Shown piece after piece: positions 12,485 through 28,952 of a DNA stretch of 30,364 nt. The DNA lies in IMG/VR virus record IMGVR_UViG_3300030061_001034, positions 1 through 30,364 of that record; one strand, written 5' to 3'. A program made the translations under genes and the position numbers. Position 1 is the first letter of the stretch, and every line of letters starts with the position of its first letter. Under the pieces are notes generated by a model. The model did no database searches. It saw nothing but the letters and a program-made list of their open reading frames with translations, and had not been told where the DNA came from. The stretch is from a virus.

Positions 12485-12947
12485 AAAGCTAACACCTAAA
12501 CAGAGAAAATTTGCTGAAGAGTATGTTAACACAGGCAACGCTTCAGAGGCTTACAGACGGGCTTATGATGTTAGTAAAACAACGTCTAATGATGTTATAA
12601 AAGTAAAGGCAAGTGAACTTCTTAAAAATGGTAACATATCGGTAACAGTCAAGGAGTTACAAATACAACAGGCTAACAAGTACGAAATAACACGCAAGGA
12701 AGTAGCTGAGGGCTATTTTAAGATGATTAAATCGTGGGAGTATCTTATGGACTTAGCCTCAAAAGAAAACCTCACTAAGGAGCAGAAATCAAAGTTCTAT
12801 TTATTAAAGGAAATGGTTAAGGGTTCTGACTATCGAGGTGCTTACGATTCTATTGCAAAGATGTTCGGACTCAACGCACCAGACAAACAAGAAATAGAAC
12901 AGACTGTTCACAATATCAACATCAACATAAAGCGTGGAAGCGACTGA
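12477..12947 (+). CDS. terS: terminase small subunit
   Basis: The 156-aa product starts MSKKLTPKQRKFAEEYVNTG followed by NASEAYRRAY and VKASELLKNGNISVTV, the N-terminal helix-turn-helix pattern of the Terminase_2 family that recognises the packaging site. A middle helical oligomerisation region follows, and the C-terminus (TVHNININIKRGS) overlaps the large subunit start by 14 bases, the usual order for terminase genes. It overlaps the GNAT gene by 8 bases. Confidence 0.9.
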   Translation: MSKKLTPKQRKFAEEYVNTGNASEAYRRAYDVSKTTSNDVIKVKASELLKNGNISVTVKELQIQQANKYEITRKEVAEGYFKMIKSWEYLMDLASKENLTKEQKSKFYLLKEMVKGSDYRGAYDSIAKMFGLNAPDKQEIEQTVHNININIKRGSD

Positions 12948-14112
12948 AATCTTTGAACGCAATTACGATAGCGAATCTAAAATCGTAGTTAATCGAGGAG
13001 GTACTCGTAGCTCTAAGACTTGGTCTTTAAATCAACTGTGTGCTTTATGGTTAATAAGTGGTAATTATGGAGACGGTCAATATTGTTATGAGGGTGTGTG
13101 GACTACAGTACGTAAATACCGTACGAACTTAGACGGAACAGTTGTCAGAGACTTTGAGGATATATTGAAAGCTGAGGGTTGGTATAATCTTGTTAATCAT
13201 AATAAGACTAAGAAACAATATAGAGTTGGTAAACGTCTTGTTGAGTTTATAGGAGCAGATGACGAACAGAAGCTGAGAGGAGCTAAAAGAAATATCTTAT
13301 ATTGTAACGAAGCAAACGAATTAGAATACAAACAGGAGTTCTTCCAGTTGTTAATGAGGACAGAGAATAAAATCTTTATTGACTTCAACCCTGACGATGA
13401 GCAAGTATGGATTAATCAGGAGATTGAAATTAAACGTTCTAATGAAGTCGGAGATGTTGAGGTAATAGTATCTAACTATAAAAACAACTCATTCTTACCT
13501 AAGTCATTAATTAAAGAAATAGAATATCTAAAGCAAACAGATAAAGAGTTCTGGAAGATATACGGTCTTGGAGAGTATGGAAATATTAGTGGGTTAATAT
13601 ATGAGAATGTTAAATACGTTGACAGGATGCCTGACGCAAAACTGGTAGCGTATGGATTAGACTTCGGTTATAGCTTAGACCCTGCGGCTTGTTTAGCTGT
13701 TTACAAAAGAGATAAAGATTTGTATTTAAAAGAGATAATTTACGAGAAAGGTTTAACCAATCAAGACCTTGCTGAACGTCTTAAACCTATTGTCAATCGT
13801 GATGAGGTTATTTGTGATAGTGCTGAACCTAAGTCAATAGAGGAGTTGTATAGATTAGGCATAAACGCAAAGCCTGCTGTCAAAGGTAGAGATTCAATAC
13901 TAAACGGAATAGACATACTTAAACGTTACAATATAAACGTTGTTAATAGTAGTAATTTAAAAAGAGAGTTCAGGACTTATAAATGGGCGACAGACAAAAA
14001 CGGTAACAGTTTACAAAAGCCAATCGGCTTAGACCACTTAATGGATGCTTTGCGATACGTTGCATTGATACATTTAAAAGAACATAATAGAGGTTGGTAT
14101 TCAATTAGATAA
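12934..14112 (+). CDS. terL: terminase large subunit (PBSX/Terminase_3 type)
   Basis: The 392-aa product is an ATP-driven packaging motor and nuclease. The Walker A-type loop is GGTRSSKT (residues 22-29) and the Walker B region NILYCNEANE (about 119-128). The nuclease domain shows acidic residues in GLDFGY (about 243), CDSAEPKSIEEL (about 293) and DHLMDALRY (about 367-375). Start is GTG 12934 inside the small-subunit gene. The length is typical for this family. The small cassette genes that follow are preceded by their own promoter, so the terminase probably ends the early/middle transcription unit. Confidence 0.93.
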   Translation: MEATEIFERNYDSESKIVVNRGGTRSSKTWSLNQLCALWLISGNYGDGQYCYEGVWTTVRKYRTNLDGTVVRDFEDILKAEGWYNLVNHNKTKKQYRVGKRLVEFIGADDEQKLRGAKRNILYCNEANELEYKQEFFQLLMRTENKIFIDFNPDDEQVWINQEIEIKRSNEVGDVEVIVSNYKNNSFLPKSLIKEIEYLKQTDKEFWKIYGLGEYGNISGLIYENVKYVDRMPDAKLVAYGLDFGYSLDPAACLAVYKRDKDLYLKEIIYEKGLTNQDLAERLKPIVNRDEVICDSAEPKSIEELYRLGINAKPAVKGRDSILNGIDILKRYNINVVNSSNLKREFRTYKWATDKNGNSLQKPIGLDHLMDALRYVALIHLKEHNRGWYSIR

Positions 14113-14162
14113 ATTAATTTACAGAGGTAGAATAAAATAATTTAAAAAAAAGTGTAAAATGT

Positions 14163-14193
14163 TTTGCTATTTATAAATATATTTATACCTTTA
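14163..14193 (+). promoter_or_regulatory. Bacteroidota-type promoter, first cassette
   Basis: TTTG (14163-14166), a 19-base spacer, then TACCTTTA (14186-14193) fits TTTG-N19-TAnnTTTG with one mismatch in the last base. An 18-base A/T core at 14170-14187 is identical to one in the second cassette promoter. The leader ends AAAACAAACATTATG at the next gene. Confidence 0.65.
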
Positions 14194-14227
14194 CATTATA
14201 ATTAACTAAAACATTAAAACAAACATT

Positions 14228-14398
14228 ATGAAAAATATTCAAAAATTAAACTGGATTTTAGAAGAAGAAAAAGAATCTTTAAATAACTTATTACAAAGAA
14301 TTCAGGATGGTGATTTAACCAGAAGAGCAATTGAAGATAGGATTAGAGAGCATATTAAGAAAAATGAATTAGCTCAAAAATTTGCTGAAAACTTATAA
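14228..14398 (+). CDS. 56-aa helical hypothetical protein, cassette 1
   Basis: The product starts MKNIQKLNWILEEEKESLNN and looks like two or three amphipathic charged helices (LLQRIQDGDLTRRAIEDRIR, then a Lys-rich end). No known domain. It has its own promoter (14163) and intrinsic terminator (14423), the layout of a moron gene inserted between the terminase and the tail module. That layout suggests independent expression, perhaps during infection or lysogeny, but the function is unknown. Confidence 0.65.
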   Translation: MKNIQKLNWILEEEKESLNNLLQRIQDGDLTRRAIEDRIREHIKKNELAQKFAENL

Positions 14399-14422
14399 TA
14401 CACAACAATAATAAAAAGAAAG

Positions 14423-14450
14423 AGCCACCGTAAAAAGTGGCTTTTTTTTT
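14423..14450 (+). terminator. intrinsic terminator, cassette 1
   Basis: Stem AGCCAC (14423-14428) pairs with GTGGCT (14437-14442) around an A-rich loop, followed by nine T. It ends the first cassette. Confidence 0.85.
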
Positions 14451-14510
14451 GCAAAAAAATATTTTGTCATTAGTGACTAAATTAAACACTTTTAAGCTCT
14501 CAACAGATAG

Positions 14511-14569
14511 AGCAATGCTAAAGCAATACTTAAGCAATGCTTAACCAATGCTCGAGCATTAAGAAGAGA
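14511..14569 (+). repeat. non-coding 11-bp iteron array, origin candidate
   Basis: Tandem units AGCAATGCT, AGCAATACT, AGCAATGCT and ACCAATGCT start at 14511, 14522, 14533 and 14544, exactly 11 bp apart, with a fifth degenerate unit at 14555. Bases 14530-14544 form an inverted repeat and 14547-14560 a perfect 14-bp palindrome (AATGCTCGAGCATT). A purine-rich strand and an A-rich tract (about 14570-14623) follow, suitable as an easily unwound element. Bases 14539-14569 match the initiator gene at 7503-7533 at 28 of 31 positions. The array lacks coding features and lies between two expression cassettes. Replication origin or initiator operator is inferred. Confidence 0.65.
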
Positions 14570-14625
14570 TAAGATAAGATAAGAAAAGAAGAGATAAAAA
14601 AAAATAAAAAAAAACTTAAAAAAGT

Positions 14626-14656
14626 TTTGTAGTTTATAAATATATTTATATATTAG
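14626..14656 (+). promoter_or_regulatory. Bacteroidota-type promoter, second cassette
   Basis: TTTG (14626-14629), a 19-base spacer and TATATTAG (14649-14656) follow the Bacteroidota pattern. Bases 14633-14650 are identical to the first cassette promoter core. The leader ends AAAACAAACACAATG as at 3775. Confidence 0.65.
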
Positions 14657-14682
14657 CATTGTAATTAATTAAAACAAACACA

Positions 14683-14853
14683 ATGAAAAGATTTAGTAAA
14701 AGTAAAACTTATTTAGATAAAGATAATAATAGATATTCGTATGATGGTAAATATAGGGGTTATTGGCATTTTTATAAATTTGAAGAAACATCCTCATCTT
14801 TTAAAACTTATTCTGAAACACAAGTTTTAGATTTACAATTAAAAGAAAAATAA
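14683..14853 (+). CDS. 56-aa aromatic-rich hypothetical protein, cassette 2
   Basis: The product starts MKRFSKSKTYLDKDNNRYSY and is rich in Tyr, Lys, Asp and Trp (YDGKYRGYWHFYKFEE), probably a small beta domain with a charged C-terminus. No recognised family. It has its own promoter (14626) and terminator (14862). Its length equals that of the cassette 1 protein, but the sequences do not look related. Confidence 0.6.
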   Translation: MKRFSKSKTYLDKDNNRYSYDGKYRGYWHFYKFEETSSSFKTYSETQVLDLQLKEK

Positions 14854-14861
14854 AAAGAAAG

Positions 14862-14888
14862 AGCTACTTTAACGAGTAGCTTTTTTTT
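14862..14888 (+). terminator. intrinsic terminator, cassette 2
   Basis: AGCTACT (14862-14868) pairs with AGTAGCT (14875-14881) across a 6-base loop, followed by a T8 tract. It ends the second cassette. Confidence 0.85.
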
Positions 14889-14889
14889 G

Positions 14890-14897
14890 TATCTTTG
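14890..14897 (+). promoter_or_regulatory. perfect -7 element (TATCTTTG) before a leader terminator
   Basis: TATCTTTG matches TAnnTTTG exactly, but no clear TTTG lies 19-21 bases upstream, because that region is the preceding terminator. If active, the transcript would begin near 14904 and meet the terminator at 14924-14960 within about 55 bases, giving a short RNA or an attenuated leader to the structural operon. Confidence 0.4.
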
Positions 14898-14923
14898 TTT
14901 TGAATGTTTTAGTCAATGAATTA

Positions 14924-14960
14924 GGGAAGGTCGGCAAAAGAGCGTCTTCCCTTTTTTTTT
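14924..14960 (+). terminator. intrinsic terminator in the leader of the structural operon
   Basis: GGGAAG (14924-14929) pairs with CTTCCC (14946-14951), with a 16-base loop and nine T immediately after. No gene ends just upstream of it, so it acts on a leader RNA or as a second stop after the 14862 terminator. Confidence 0.7.
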
Positions 14961-14988
14961 GTCTTTATTGTAAATATTAAAAAATTTG
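14958..14988 (+). promoter_or_regulatory. candidate promoter for the structural (late) operon
   Basis: TTTG (14958-14961), 19 bases, then AAAATTTG (14981-14988) matches the TTTG half of the -7 element but lacks its TA. The overlapping 14-mer ATTTGTTATATATA (14984-14997) recurs exactly at 24227 before the scaffold gene, so a shared late signal is possible. Confidence 0.4.
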
Positions 14989-15002
14989 TTATATATAGTA
15001 TT

Positions 15003-15647
15003 ATGGAGATTACACTACCAACATCCTGGAACGATATAACGTTGCAAAAGTATATTAATTTAAGACCTGTAATAAACACCGAAATGAGTGAGATAGAGAG
15101 AGTCATTAATATTCTTTGTGTGTTAACAGGTGAAAAGAAAGAAGTAATTAAGAACATAAGTTTAGAACAGTATCATAAGATAAAAAAGAAATTAGCTTTT
15201 CTAAATACTGAACTACCTGAAACATTAGTTAACAAAAGATTTAAGATAGGTTCTCATTGGTATGAATTTAAGTTAAACGCTAATAAACTTTTATTTGGTG
15301 AGTACATTAACAATATGGAAATATTGCAAGACGCTCAAGATAATCAAGAAGTAATATTCAACAACCTTCATAAAATACTAACTACGATATGCCGACCAAT
15401 TGAGAAGAAGCGGTTTAGATGGAGAGACGTTGAAGTTACAGGAGAAGTCGTCAGGCAGACAGCGGACAACTTCTTAGAGAATATGCCTATATCTATAGCC
15501 TATCCAATCGGTGTTTTTTTTTACAATCACTTACCGAACTTAACAGCAGATATAAAAACCTCTTTGATGGAGAAAGTGGAGAAGATAATGAAAGAGTCAA
15601 AAGCGGAACTGGATTCGCTGAGCGTTGGGGATGGTGGTCAACATTAG
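15003..15647 (+). CDS. tail assembly chaperone-like protein, short form
   Basis: The 214-aa zero-frame product starts MEITLPTSWNDITLQKYINL, with ITLQKYINL and ERVINILCVLTG helices common in siphovirus tail chaperones, and includes IAYPIGVFF before a charged helical C-terminus ending SVGDGGQH. It opens the structural operon. A T9 run near codon 172 allows -1 slippage onto a 92-codon extension (entry at 15003-15799). The pair would correspond to the G and GT chaperone forms, which guide tape-measure folding and tail assembly. Family assignment is by pattern and architecture, not a database match. Confidence 0.65.
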   Translation: MEITLPTSWNDITLQKYINLRPVINTEMSEIERVINILCVLTGEKKEVIKNISLEQYHKIKKKLAFLNTELPETLVNKRFKIGSHWYEFKLNANKLLFGEYINNMEILQDAQDNQEVIFNNLHKILTTICRPIEKKRFRWRDVEVTGEVVRQTADNFLENMPISIAYPIGVFFYNHLPNLTADIKTSLMEKVEKIMKESKAELDSLSVGDGGQH

Positions 15648-15799
15648 ACAATCTTACAAATAGTCGGATTGACAAGTGGGATGAGATACTCGCTTGGGAA
15701 GTAATTAAAGCTTTAAATATAGTAGCTTACTATAGTGATAAACAAAAGATGGAAAGACAAGTACATAACGACTCAATGCAAAAACTAAAACGTAGATAA
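15003..15799 (+). CDS. predicted -1 frameshift product of the tail chaperone (GT-like)
   Basis: Slipping back one base at U UUU UUU (15515-15521) joins 173 zero-frame codons to 92 codons of the -1 frame, giving about 265 residues. The extension begins LQSLTELNSRYKNLFDG and continues through ERWGWWSTLDNLT, RIDKWDEILAWEVIKAL and YYSDKQKMERQVHND. Its frame is open from 15434 and has no start codon before a Met very near its end, so it is expressed only through the upstream frame. Its stop (15797-15799) overlaps the ATG of the next gene (TAATG), as other real gene ends here do. Programmed frameshifting in tail chaperones is well known; use of this site is inferred. Confidence 0.65.
15514..15522 (+). 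promoter_or_regulatory. T9 slippery site for -1 frameshifting
   Basis: Nine T in a row contain the canonical heptamer T TTT TTT in zero-frame phase (15515-15521), followed by TAC. Simultaneous slippage of two Phe tRNAs would place ribosomes in the long -1 frame. I see no strong stimulatory hairpin just downstream. Polymerase slippage on the T run would produce the same fusion. Confidence 0.6.
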
Positions 15800-16380
15800 T
15801 GAGTGAGAGTCCTTTCGATATAAATTCTTTTGACGTTTCTCAATTAGAGGAGGTTGTTATTGACAATCCTACAACAATGGGAGAAGTGATGAGCAACATA
15901 GCCGCTGAAATGGTTTACTGTTTAAAAGCAACTATTGACGAGAAAGGTGTTATATATAAGGGAAACTTAAAAGACTCTGTTAGGATGCCTATTGAGATGT
16001 TTGGGCAGAAGATGACAGCTACACTTTATATGGCTGATTATTACGACTATATTAATCAAGGTGTTAAGGGAATAGGTGGAACTCGAAAGAGTGGAACGAG
16101 AGAGAATGAACCATGGGAAATTAAAGCTCCAAACTCTCCTTATAGTTTTAAGAAAGGTCCTAAAGTAAGCCACATAAGAGAATGGTCTAAAAGTAAAGGA
16201 TTAAACGAGTACGCAGTTAGAGCGTCAATAGCTCATAAAGGAATTAAACCTCGTTATTTCTTTGACGACTGTATGAAAGAAACGTTTACAGGCGAAGCGT
16301 TTAGCAAGTTTAAAAAAGACATTAGAATTGTTACTACTAAGAAAGTAACTAAAGGAATGAAAAAGATATTTAAAAAATGA
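15799..16380 (+). CDS. tail completion / HK97 gp10-like protein
   Basis: The 193-aa product contains the YMADYYDYINQGVKGIGG segment seen in gp10-like neck/tail-completion proteins, a Gly/Lys/Arg loop and a C-terminal RYFFDDCMKETF before a basic tail. The protein probably acts in the tail tube-to-head junction. It is translationally coupled to the frameshift product upstream (TAATG), and its stop overlaps the next ATG (ATGA). Assignment rests on motif resemblance and position. Confidence 0.6.
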   Translation: MSESPFDINSFDVSQLEEVVIDNPTTMGEVMSNIAAEMVYCLKATIDEKGVIYKGNLKDSVRMPIEMFGQKMTATLYMADYYDYINQGVKGIGGTRKSGTRENEPWEIKAPNSPYSFKKGPKVSHIREWSKSKGLNEYAVRASIAHKGIKPRYFFDDCMKETFTGEAFSKFKKDIRIVTTKKVTKGMKKIFKK

Positions 16381-20926: not shown

Positions 20927-23020
20927 ATGGCAGAAAAGATAGCATTAGAATTAGACGTACAAACAGGTAAAGCTGTTAGTAATTTAGGTGATTTAGAAAA
21001 AGCAACTAAACAACTAAATAAAACTATAGATAAGTCTGAAAAAGAAACACAGACTTTACAGCAACAGTTTGACTCTTTAAATAAAGAAATAGAGGAAGCT
21101 CCCGTAAATATACGGGCAATGAATAAGCAAATTCAACAGTATCAAGCAATAGCCTTAGAAGCAGGAAGGACTTCACCTTTAGGAAAAGATGCAATTAGAA
21201 AAGCAGCTGCCTTAAAAGATAGATACATCGATATTCAAAACGAAGTTAATAGACTTGCAAATGACGGAGTTAAACTTCAGGCGGCTTTAGATATTGGAAC
21301 AACTGTCGTAGCAGGGTTTACAGCTTTTCAGGGTGTTATGGCTTTGAGTGGTGTTGAGAGTGAAGAGTTAAGAGAAACAATGGTTAAGTTACAAGGCGCT
21401 CAGTCTGTCTTAATGGGTGTTGAAACGTTAAGAAAGAATTTAGAGAAAGAAAGTACTATTATTCTCGTTGCTAAAAACACAGCAGAAAAAGCAAACCTTG
21501 CACTTGTAAAAGCAACTACAATAGCAAACAAAGCCTTAGGACTTTCGACAGACGCTACAACAAAGTCGTTTAAATTAATGAGAGGAGCTTTAATAGCTAC
21601 GGGAATAGGTGCTATTATTGTGTTGATAGGAACTTTAATTGCTAACTGGGATAAGGTCACTAAGGCTTTAAGTAGTACAACAGCAGCACAAGAAGCATAT
21701 AACGAAGCGTCAGCAAAAGCAATTGACAGCATTGGAAAAGAGTTAGACGCTGCTGACAAATTACAAAAAGTTTTAAAAGACGATACAAAAACGAGAGAGG
21801 AAAAAGTTCAAGCGGTTAAAGATTTACAAGAAGAGTACCCTGGATTATTAGACAACGTTGATGCTGAGAAAGACGGATTAATTGCAGTTAGTGAACAACT
21901 AACTAAAAACATTGAATTAATAATGATTAAGGCGCAATTAGAAGCGTTGGCAGAATTAAGACAGGAGAAAACAAAAGAGAATTTAAAATTAGAATTAGAA
22001 GCTCAAACTGGAGTTAATGTTGGTATAATGGACCATATTGCAACTTTACAACTTAGTATGACTGCTCAAGAAATGGCTGACGCAAAAACCGCCAATAGTG
22101 TTGAAGAAAATAAAAAGTTTATTGATAGTATTGATGATATGGTTGAAGCCTTAGAGGCTAAAAAGAAAGCATCACTTGAAGGAGGGTCAAGTGACGCAGA
22201 AGAGGCTAAAAAAGAAGCAGATAGATTAAAAGAATTAGAAAAGCAAAAAAAGGAAGCAACTAAAAAAGAAGCAAAAAGACTTAAAGAAATAGCAGCAGAG
22301 GAGAAAAAAGCAGCAGCCGAAAAAGCAAAAATGCAAAAACTTGCAGACGACTTAATGCTTACAGCGAGAAAAGAGATAAACAAAAGAAGAGTAATAGAGG
22401 AAATAGAAACAAATAATAAATTAAAAGAGGAAGAAAAATCTACACTTGAAACATTATCGGGATTTTATAAAGCTTATTACGATAAACAAAGAGAAGACGC
22501 AAAAAAAGAGTTAGAGAGACAAATAGCTTTAGAAGATGCAAAGTTGAGTTTGGCTGCTGACGGAGTAGGTGCTTTAATTAACTTAACAACAGCGTTTGCA
22601 AAAGATAACGAGAAGAGTCAAAAGAGAGCCTTTGAAATAAATAAAAGATTACAAATTGCACAGGCAATTATTCAAACTTATCAAGGTGCAAATGCTATCT
22701 TTGCTGCTCGTGCTGCAAGTCCAGAAACTATATTATTTCCCGCAGCTCCTTTTATAGCGGCAGGGATTGCAGTTGCTAACGGATTAGCAAACGTTGCTAC
22801 AATAAGTAAACAACAGTTTCAGAGCGGAAATCCTGGAGGTGGTGGAAATCAAGCTCCTGACTTTTCGGGTGGTGCAGGTAGTGCGCCTCAATTGTCGCCA
22901 GTTACAAATACGAGTACAATAGTACCACAAGAACCGACTCAAGTTTTCGTGACTGAGACGGATATTACTAACACACAAAATCAAGTGAATGTCATACAAG
23001 GACAAGCAACACTTAGTTAA
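20927..23020 (+). CDS. tape measure protein
   Basis: The 697-aa product has the composition of a tape measure. A long charged N-terminal coiled coil (ALELDVQTGKAVSNLGDLEK, then QTLQQQFDSLNKEIEEAP) leads to a hydrophobic segment (LIATGIGAIIVLIGTLIANW, about 222-241), a Lys/Glu/Ala helix (KEADRLKELEKQKKEATKKE, about 425-480), and a second hydrophobic region (FPAAPFIAAGIAVANGLANV). The Gly/Gln-rich end is flexible. It sets tail length. It is short, consistent with a small siphovirus. It follows the fibre gene rather than the chaperone genes, an unusual order. Its frame ends in a Gln/Val-rich tail. Confidence 0.8.
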   Translation: MAEKIALELDVQTGKAVSNLGDLEKATKQLNKTIDKSEKETQTLQQQFDSLNKEIEEAPVNIRAMNKQIQQYQAIALEAGRTSPLGKDAIRKAAALKDRYIDIQNEVNRLANDGVKLQAALDIGTTVVAGFTAFQGVMALSGVESEELRETMVKLQGAQSVLMGVETLRKNLEKESTIILVAKNTAEKANLALVKATTIANKALGLSTDATTKSFKLMRGALIATGIGAIIVLIGTLIANWDKVTKALSSTTAAQEAYNEASAKAIDSIGKELDAADKLQKVLKDDTKTREEKVQAVKDLQEEYPGLLDNVDAEKDGLIAVSEQLTKNIELIMIKAQLEALAELRQEKTKENLKLELEAQTGVNVGIMDHIATLQLSMTAQEMADAKTANSVEENKKFIDSIDDMVEALEAKKKASLEGGSSDAEEAKKEADRLKELEKQKKEATKKEAKRLKEIAAEEKKAAAEKAKMQKLADDLMLTARKEINKRRVIEEIETNNKLKEEEKSTLETLSGFYKAYYDKQREDAKKELERQIALEDAKLSLAADGVGALINLTTAFAKDNEKSQKRAFEINKRLQIAQAIIQTYQGANAIFAARAASPETILFPAAPFIAAGIAVANGLANVATISKQQFQSGNPGGGGNQAPDFSGGAGSAPQLSPVTNTSTIVPQEPTQVFVTETDITNTQNQVNVIQGQATLS

Positions 23021-26707: not shown

Positions 26708-27105
26708 TAGTGTTAAATAAGAACCAAACTACTAATTTTGTAGCAACACTTTACGAGCTGAGTACTTTAACAAATCCGAATTATTTGTTTAAATTTACAA
26801 GCGACCAAACTAAAGTAAGTTACTACACAATAATGACAGACATAAGCACCAATAAGACTCGTTATAATGAGTTTAATTTTATTGAAGGTGTGAACGATGC
26901 TGTTAATGGTAGTTTAATCCTTGGAAAAGGAGGTTTTTATTCTTATGAAGTTTATGAGCAAGTTAGCTCTACAAACTTAGACCCGTCAGGGTTAACAAAA
27001 GTAGAAGAGGGAAAAATTAAGTTATTAGATAGCACTTACACTCCGTCTTATACACAACACACAAATGCAACAAATACTAACGTAGTTTACAACCCTTCAT
27101 TATGA
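26704..27105 (+). CDS. putative virion protein (133 aa)
   Basis: A beta-rich protein starting MIVLNKNQTTNFVATLYELS, with TNPNYLFKFTSDQTKVSYY and a repeated GGFYSYEVYEQ strand region, ending in a Thr/Asn-rich tail. Short beta-sandwich proteins like this occur beside portals and may be head fibres or decoration proteins; this is inference. It is coupled to both neighbours by start/stop overlaps. Confidence 0.55.
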   Translation: MIVLNKNQTTNFVATLYELSTLTNPNYLFKFTSDQTKVSYYTIMTDISTNKTRYNEFNFIEGVNDAVNGSLILGKGGFYSYEVYEQVSSTNLDPSGLTKVEEGKIKLLDSTYTPSYTQHTNATNTNVVYNPSL

Positions 27106-28952
27106 GCGTAAAATTATTACCATTAGATTTTGGAGGTTATGAGCTACCTCAATTTAAAGAATCAAAGAAAGGCGACTGGTATGAATACGGAACAGAGCGA
27201 CCTTATAAAAATACATATCCTGATTACTTAACTAAGTTATACAACGAAAGCTCTAAGCATAATCAAATAATCAACTCTAAGGTTAAGTTTATAGTCGGTC
27301 AAGGGTTTAGTATAGAGGGCAATTTATCGTTTAAAGAGAGAGCTTATATTGATGGTTTCTTAAGGATGCCAAACGAAGACGAAAACTTAGACGACTTACT
27401 AACTAAATTAGCAAAGGATAAAAAAGTTTATGGAGGTTTTGCTTTACAGGTAAGAATGTCTAAAAATGGTAAGATTGCAGCAGTTAATCATATCGACTTT
27501 TGTGATATTCGTTGCGGTGTTGAAAATAATCTTTATTACTATACTGACGATTGGTCGGCAAGAAACCCACAAAATAACGAAGATTTTAAAGTATTAATGC
27601 AGTTCCCTTATGACGATACTGCAAAGAGTGAGGTTGACTACTTAATTTATTATAAAGAATATAGACCAGACGTAGGAGTTTATCCTTTGCCTGACTACGT
27701 TTCAGCAATACCTTATTTAGAGTCTGACGCACAGATTGCAAACTTTACGCTTTGTAATATATCTAACAACCTGAGTTCTGGCTATATAATTAGTTTTTCT
27801 AATGGTCAACCAACAGAGGAGGAGATGTCTGAAATTGAAAGACGATTTAAGAATTACGCTACAGGTCCTGACAATGCAGGAAAGCCTCTTTTATCTTTTA
27901 CAGACCAGGCTTCAGACCATCCTCAAATAATGCCTATTCCAGTTAACGGACAGGATGAGAGATTTATAAACTTAAACAACCAAATAAGAGAAGAAATATT
28001 CACAGCTCACGGAATAACGAGTCCTAAACTATTTGGTATAAAAGACAGTTCAGGATTAGGAAACAACGCTGACGAGATAGCAGTAGCAAGTCAGTTGTAT
28101 CAAAACTTACAAATAGACCCTGAGCAAAAGATATTTAACGAGTTAATTAACTCAATACTTAATTTTAACGGTGTTGTAGGTTCGCCTGTTCACATTGTTA
28201 AGATTGAGCCAGTACAAAGACAATTCTCAGAACAAACGGTTGTTAATGTAATGACACCTGACGAGATTAGAGAGAAGATAGGATTAGCACCTTTAGAAGT
28301 AGGGCAACAAGTGCAAATGAATAGTAGCGAAGATGAGATTATTCTAAGTCAATTAAAAGACACAGGTTACAACGAAACAGAGTTAGAGGTGTTAGACACC
28401 TATATTAACCCTATAACGTCTTTAGAAGACGCTAAAATGTATGAGGAGCAGATAAGAAATGAGTCTTTCGCTATAACAACAGTATTAAACGAGTTAGAAA
28501 AAGACGTTTTAAGTCTATTAATTAAGACACCTGACTTACCTATTACTGAATTAAGCAAAGGATTAAACGTTCCAATAAGTGATATTAGCGAAGCGGTATC
28601 TAACTTAGTTGACGCAAAAGCCTTAGACAAAGAATTTAAGCCAACAGCAGACGCAAAAGAAACAATACAAAAACCGAAAGAAGAGATTTTTATCGTTTAT
28701 CAGTATATTGAAAGACCAGACGCACCGCCACTAAAGACAGAAAGTAGACCTTTTTGCAGAAAAATGATGTTATTAGCAACAACTAAACGTTATACACTAC
28801 AACAATTAGAATTGTTAACTAACGATTTTGGTCAAACAGGAATATCAATTTTTACTAAAAGAGGTGGTTGGTATAATAACCCAGAGACAGGAAAGACGAC
28901 TCCGTTTTGTAGACACATTTGGCAACAACAAGTAGTAAGATTAAAAAGATAA
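27102..28952 (+). CDS. portal protein with C-terminal wHTH-like and MuF-like extensions
   Basis: The first ~440 residues form a portal: PYKNTYPDYLTKLYNESSKH, VKFIVGQGFSIEG, AKDKKVYGGFALQV, NHIDFCDIRCG, and the late NNQIREEIFTAHGITSPKLF typical of portal clip/stem regions. Residues about 462-510 (LEKDVLSLLIKTPDLPITEL, LNVPISDISEAVSNLVDAKA) form a winged-helix-like domain, and about 540-615 contain RPDAPPLKTESRPFCRKMML and TPFCRHIWQQQ, Cys/His motifs like the C-terminus of Mu F-type minor head proteins. The protein forms the dodecameric DNA channel. The extra domains are unusual. It overlaps the upstream gene by 4 bases. Confidence 0.8.
   Translation: MSVKLLPLDFGGYELPQFKESKKGDWYEYGTERPYKNTYPDYLTKLYNESSKHNQIINSKVKFIVGQGFSIEGNLSFKERAYIDGFLRMPNEDENLDDLLTKLAKDKKVYGGFALQVRMSKNGKIAAVNHIDFCDIRCGVENNLYYYTDDWSARNPQNNEDFKVLMQFPYDDTAKSEVDYLIYYKEYRPDVGVYPLPDYVSAIPYLESDAQIANFTLCNISNNLSSGYIISFSNGQPTEEEMSEIERRFKNYATGPDNAGKPLLSFTDQASDHPQIMPIPVNGQDERFINLNNQIREEIFTAHGITSPKLFGIKDSSGLGNNADEIAVASQLYQNLQIDPEQKIFNELINSILNFNGVVGSPVHIVKIEPVQRQFSEQTVVNVMTPDEIREKIGLAPLEVGQQVQMNSSEDEIILSQLKDTGYNETELEVLDTYINPITSLEDAKMYEEQIRNESFAITTVLNELEKDVLSLLIKTPDLPITELSKGLNVPISDISEAVSNLVDAKALDKEFKPTADAKETIQKPKEEIFIVYQYIERPDAPPLKTESRPFCRKMMLLATTKRYTLQQLELLTNDFGQTGISIFTKRGGWYNNPETGKTTPFCRHIWQQQVVRLKR

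Follow-up and report, generated by a model that had tools for sequence, protein, structure and literature searches.

A conserved T9 run and a putative slippage-derived, tail-chaperone-like protein pair in phages of Flavobacteriaceae

A run of nine T residues lies within a gene of the virus record IMGVR_UViG_3300030061_001034, and the question it raises is whether a -1 change of reading frame at this run adds a second domain to the gene product. The window, that is, the whole stretch of virus DNA analyzed, comprises 30,364 nt. The original prediction proposed a programmed -1 frameshift yielding a tail chaperone pair of the G/GT type. The following features of the window are used throughout.

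12934-14112, plus strand: large terminase (Terminase_3 / Terminase_3C), upstream neighbor, with the same order in relatives
15003-15647, plus strand: zero-frame gene, short product of 214 aa, conserved domain at residues 1-173
15514-15522, plus strand: T9 run, the putative slip site, with the in-phase heptamer T_TTT_TTT at 15515-15521
15515-15799, plus strand: -1-frame part of the predicted long product, Phe-Phe plus 92 aa with a WGW motif, stop codon at 15797-15799
15003-15799, plus strand: composite coding region of the predicted 265-aa long product, collinear with a single-frame homologue in phage 23T
15799-16380, plus strand: next gene, 193 aa, whose ATG overlaps the stop codon of the extension; HK97-gp10-like by eye only
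20927-23020, plus strand: tape measure protein (phrog_1538, tail length tape measure protein, E 2.7e-8)

The two reading frames and their conservation

The zero frame opens with the ATG at 15003 and closes with the stop codon at 15645-15647, and bases 15513-15524, in phase with this ATG, read GTT TTT TTT TAC. In the -1 frame, no stop codon occurs from 15434 until the TAA at 15797-15799, which overlaps the ATG at 15799, and the window holds no ATG between the last upstream stop of this frame and the WGW motif. The phase of the run, the extent of the open -1 frame, and the lack of a start codon ahead of the extension were thus as originally described. T9 runs as such are not unusual in the window, which has a G+C content of 33% and contains eight of them versus 11.5 expected from shuffling; the case for a slip site therefore rests on comparison. 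The run at 15514-15522 is the only sense-strand T9 within a called gene of the window. An intrinsic terminator at this position was ruled out: there is no hairpin at the run, and terminator-like elements are located upstream, for example at 14855-14888. In a profile search, the N-terminal domain of the short form matched phrog_32199, of unknown function (E 4.9e-6), and the AlphaFold2 model of residues 1-173, for which the isolate row was left out of the alignment, had a pLDDT of 92.5 and a pTM of 0.85.

Conservation of the run in relatives had been named as a check, and it was found in all but one of the close relatives. These were collected from IMG/VR by a peptide-pattern search that is blind to the T run, which returned 54 sequences with 58-95% identity. 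The single exception (L048) has a T8 and broken frames and, like one further locus (L373), looks like a sequence error. In the close relatives with an in-phase T9, the -1 extension is likewise present and stops at base 797 of the gene. When the 27 non-redundant relatives were compared, about 11 consecutive bases at the run were invariant, versus 7% of the upstream third positions. The extension-only region of the same relatives was free of stop codons in the -1 frame and showed a pS of 0.64, a pN of 0.12, and a dN/dS of 0.09 in that frame, compared with dN/dS values of 1.0-1.4 in the other frames.

Profile- and seed-based scans, together with further searches, extended the family to more than 450 loci, duplicate contigs counted, from IMG/VR, the isolate phage P12024L, and Flavobacteriaceae genomes. 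Essentially all of them depend on this -1 shift, at a T run that is in phase, and members with T9, T10, and T12 each have the matching phase. A DNA pattern combining T9 with the WGW codons gave the same frame relation, together with a long upstream open reading frame in the zero frame, in 105 of 106 among the matches listed. A scan aimed at single-frame fused forms returned frameshift types only. Elsewhere in these genes, TTT accounts for only 73% of the Phe codons (TTC for 27%) and a wobble T for 37% of the Val, Leu, and Ile codons, and codon usage therefore does not account for the invariable TTT TTT that follows NTT. Where hosts are known, they are Flavobacteriaceae, and a Flagellimonas genome is among the genomes of this family that carry the frameshift locus. 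On the basis of these comparisons, the frame change is almost certainly real and adds a hidden 92-aa domain.

Two variants were observed. In a subgroup within the set L596-L711, the slip site is lengthened by one Phe codon (CTT TTT TTT TTC TAY), which gives a T10 and adds one residue to both products. One IMG/VR locus (L355) has a T7, with TGA and TAA in the -1 frame right after the slip and the WGW extension intact further on; this is either an error or another route to the extension.

Ribosomal or RNA polymerase slippage as possible mechanisms

We consider it likely that slippage at the T9 run generates a short and a long form that make up a tail-chaperone-like pair. One start codon would give two proteins: normal reading would produce the 214-aa short form, and slippage on a fraction of transcripts or ribosomes would shift reading by -1 after ...GVFF and produce the long form of 265 aa, with the WGW domain in its C-terminal 92 residues. 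Both forms would presumably be made in a set ratio. As to what slips, the frame change at the T9 run foreseen by the original prediction stands, whereas slippage of RNA polymerase agrees with the data about as well as slippage of the ribosome. From the sequence comparisons, the two mechanisms are judged about equal, each falling just short of an even chance.

In the first mechanism, -1 frameshifting of the classical kind would take place on U_UUU_UUU, as it does in lambda G/GT with another heptamer. The in-phase heptamer T_TTT_TTT is present in 350 of the 350 loci that have both parts in the -1 relation, T8 members included, although phase is weak evidence, since a T9 will include an in-phase heptamer in any register. 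Known tail-chaperone frameshifts are described as ribosomal (PMC5009743), that of lambda being low-level, and frameshift efficiencies of 6-7% have been measured for an HK97-like cluster (PMC3711429). Two features fit this mechanism less well: a T is strictly needed at the last heptamer position, which is normally free, with long runs also needed, and no stimulator was found. A stimulatory stem-loop or pseudoknot downstream of the slip site is common, but not obligatory, in -1 ribosomal frameshifting. Across 146 members, pseudoknot-free folding showed no excess of downstream RNA structure (mean z of -0.14 and 0.02, versus -0.1 to -0.4 upstream), and the consensus fold of the downstream region in the clade of the window was empty in alifold.

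In the second mechanism, RNA polymerase would insert one U at the T9 run in some transcripts, and the ribosome would then read the extension in frame. Bacterial RNA polymerase slips on T runs of at least seven, typically nine, residues (PMC6260861, PMC3711429) and prefers poly(T) (PMC6260861); Tn with n >8 is a known slippage signal (PMC3711429). The run of nine in Shigella mxiE (PMC6260861, PMC5009743) resembles the present one in that a T9 leads to an extended product; it differs in that mxiE is not a phage gene and in that polymerase slippage is a candidate mechanism here. Run length is in agreement with this mechanism. Among the loci found through peptide patterns only and having the normal frame relation (223, of which 104 are non-redundant), all 223 have at least nine Ts (190 T9, 31 T10, and 2 T12), as do 189 of the 193 non-redundant loci overall. 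T8 members nevertheless exist (L277/L291, L310, and L295). In addition, the preceding hydrophobic NTT codon and the Leu codon (TTR) of the shifted frame impose an amino acid constraint that partly explains the outer two Ts, which weakened the argument that a T9 rather than a T7 proves polymerase slippage. A compensation test, in which a next codon not beginning with T was expected to go with TTT as the previous codon, lost its support once relatedness was removed.

Polymerase slippage also draws support from the missing downstream structure, within the scope stated above, and from an absent sequence variant. The substitution T15521C leaves the encoded amino acids of both frames unchanged (TTT to TTC and TTA to CTA) and keeps a heptamer, T_TTT_TTC. 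A targeted scan found this form in none of the family members, even though TTC makes up 27% of the Phe codons of the domain, and the same scan returned 87 members with T10 before C. Its absence indicates a requirement for an unbroken T run or, at a minimum, for UUU in the two slip codons; a ribosome needing UUU rather than UUC in the A site would yield the same pattern.

Gene neighborhood and function

The order large terminase, frameshift gene, small tail- or neck-type genes, two large tail genes, and tape measure was found in all families checked. The original prediction considered the distance to the tape measure, four genes, unusual; three genes do separate the frameshift gene from the tape measure, which is the fourth one downstream, but the family as a whole normally has this layout. 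The product of the next gene (15799-16380) gave no profile match above the cut-off, and it appears to resemble HK97-gp10-like proteins.

Further observations were made in the surroundings. Between the terminase and the frameshift gene (14112-15003), there are two small units with 56-aa open reading frames (14228-14398 and 14683-14853). Both the segments upstream of them (85 nt, 79% identical) and their terminator-like ends (46 nt, 83%) are duplicated; direct repeats of 11 nt of the AGCAATGCTTA type are located at 14511-14554. The portal protein (27102-28952, 616 aa) has a winged-helix-like HTH_24 Pfam match, at the cut-off, in residues 462-505 after the portal domain. The open reading frame at 3-1016, which runs off the start of the window, contains a Laminin-G/concanavalin-like domain and is probably a host-binding tail protein.

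We somewhat favor a G/GT-like tail chaperone role, in which the gene would act like G/GT and is not filed as a member of the G/GT family. By analogy with the chaperone pair of siphophages, the short form would coat the tape measure protein and the long form would recruit the tail tube protein. The proposed G/GT-like pair agrees with the frameshift, the location in the tail gene block, and one weak Foldseek match (E 0.018, probability 0.98) to a protein that carries the annotation "Tail assembly chaperone protein". It agrees less with the position beside the terminase and with the profile searches, in which neither part matched a known chaperone family in Pfam, PHROGs, NCBIfam, or the PDB. Structure searches of both models against the PDB were uninformative (best Z 2.9 and 3.4), and a DNA-level search of phage records gave no match. 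The T4 proteins gp26 and gp51 were rejected as relatives, their hhalign scores being at the level of shuffled controls.

The gene would share with lambda gpG/gpGT and other chaperone pairs of dsDNA phages (PMC5009743) two products from one start, a -1 shift late in a gene of the tail block, and an extension that lacks its own start and ends at the next gene. It differs in that no sequence similarity was found and in its longer N-terminal domain, with about 173 aa before the slip. The position is also different: G/GT genes lie between the major tail protein and the tape measure, whereas the present gene directly follows the terminase, and the tape measure is its fourth downstream gene. Finally, the slip site here is a T9 homopolymer in place of a heptamer of mixed bases, for example G_GGA_AAG.

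A different role for the two products, such as head-tail joining or baseplate assembly, is the less likely reading. It would suit a gene placed after the terminase and before small genes resembling neck or tail-completion genes, away from the tape measure, and Foldseek lists a T4-type baseplate hub subunit without significance (E 0.32); the combination of a frameshift, short and long forms, and a tail block is, however, typical of chaperones.

Homologues in one or two frames and significance

The locus is also present in an isolate. Nonlabens phage P12024L has a homologous gene of 25% identity with CTT TTT TTT TAT at the matching place, a T9 in the same phase, followed by a WGW extension, and its layout matches that of the window. 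In GenBank, the locus appears in P12024L and P12024S (Inhavirus) as two separate hypothetical proteins (gp40-gp41 and gp38-gp39, respectively), unlike the single slipping gene proposed here. It is very improbable that the extension forms a gene of its own with a separate start, as gp41 is annotated, and that the T run is incidental. The annotated start of gp41 is an ATG within the extension and would omit most of the domain before WGW. Start codons are absent there in most members: in the -1 frame ahead of WGW, 77 of 96 diverse members lack ATG, GTG, and TTG alike, and the window lacks an ATG, so the extension cannot be accounted for by separate initiation. Moreover, the T run is where the conserved stretch starts and where the frames meet in every case.

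Remote homologues of the whole long form occur in a single frame. When the models were compared with viral models using Foldseek, the N-terminal domain found matches among phage proteins of 230-270 aa, some of which were also matched, in their C-terminal part, by the extension model, so that the library probably contains long products encoded in a single frame. Flavobacterium phage 23T (ANB40982) and its relatives (Duneviridae), as well as several Flavobacteriaceae prophages, encode a homologue of about 290 aa in one frame; unlike the present gene, it has no WGW motif and no slip site, and only the long form is made. The profile of the joined protein aligned end to end with the 23T family over 237 columns (hhalign 98%, E 3e-13), with the slip junction FFLxFRxRL over LYFASFQKYL. 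The N-terminal domain alone also matched this family (E 9.5e-13); the extension alone gave no significant match to it, so homology of the C-terminal half rests on collinearity. Of all the evidence, this alignment argues best for the -1 product being the full-length protein. Together with the more than 450 loci, the coding evolution of the -1 frame, and the isolate genome, it strongly supports use of the site, a 92-residue domain that ordinary gene calling misses, and the view that no sequencing indel is involved. Since the Duneviridae-type homologue has the long form only, a short-to-long ratio is not needed by all relatives.

That the true gene occupies one frame, broken by an indel from sequencing or assembly or by gene decay, is the least probable reading of all: long T runs are error-prone, the remote homologues are in one frame, and L048 and L373 resemble indel errors, but more than 450 loci share this -1 relation, with many independent metagenomes, an isolate, and bacterial genomes among their sources, and T9, T10, and T12 each come with the matching phase. 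Genes encoding both parts in a single frame, named beforehand as a sign of an indel, do exist, though only in the remote lineage, and do not point to one here. In Flavobacterium phage 6H (L469, KC959568; 10040-10927, minus strand), the homologue is 2 bases longer than those of its relatives; the gene is cut to 191 aa with the remainder unannotated, while phage 23T has one frame of 293 aa. Another frameshift in 6H was rejected, as the relatives show a 2-nt length difference in the 6H record.

Tail-chaperone frameshifts are already known; what is new here is that the slip site is a T9, that the gene is placed differently, and that polymerase may be what slips, and no report of this frameshift was found among open-licence papers. 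A conserved domain in hundreds of flavophage contigs is absent from gene calls and family libraries, and these tail genes are consequently split or truncated in databases. The doubly synonymous change T15521C would be a clean discriminator between ribosomal and polymerase slippage, and the single-frame sister family is a natural experiment on whether a short-to-long ratio is needed to build a tail. Tentatively, a very large group of marine Flavobacteriia phages may make a tail-assembly pair by polymerase rather than ribosomal slippage at an obligate run of T9 or longer, with a remote sister lineage that uses a single frame. If polymerase slippage is indeed the mechanism, transcriptional slippage would set the ratio of a phage tail chaperone.
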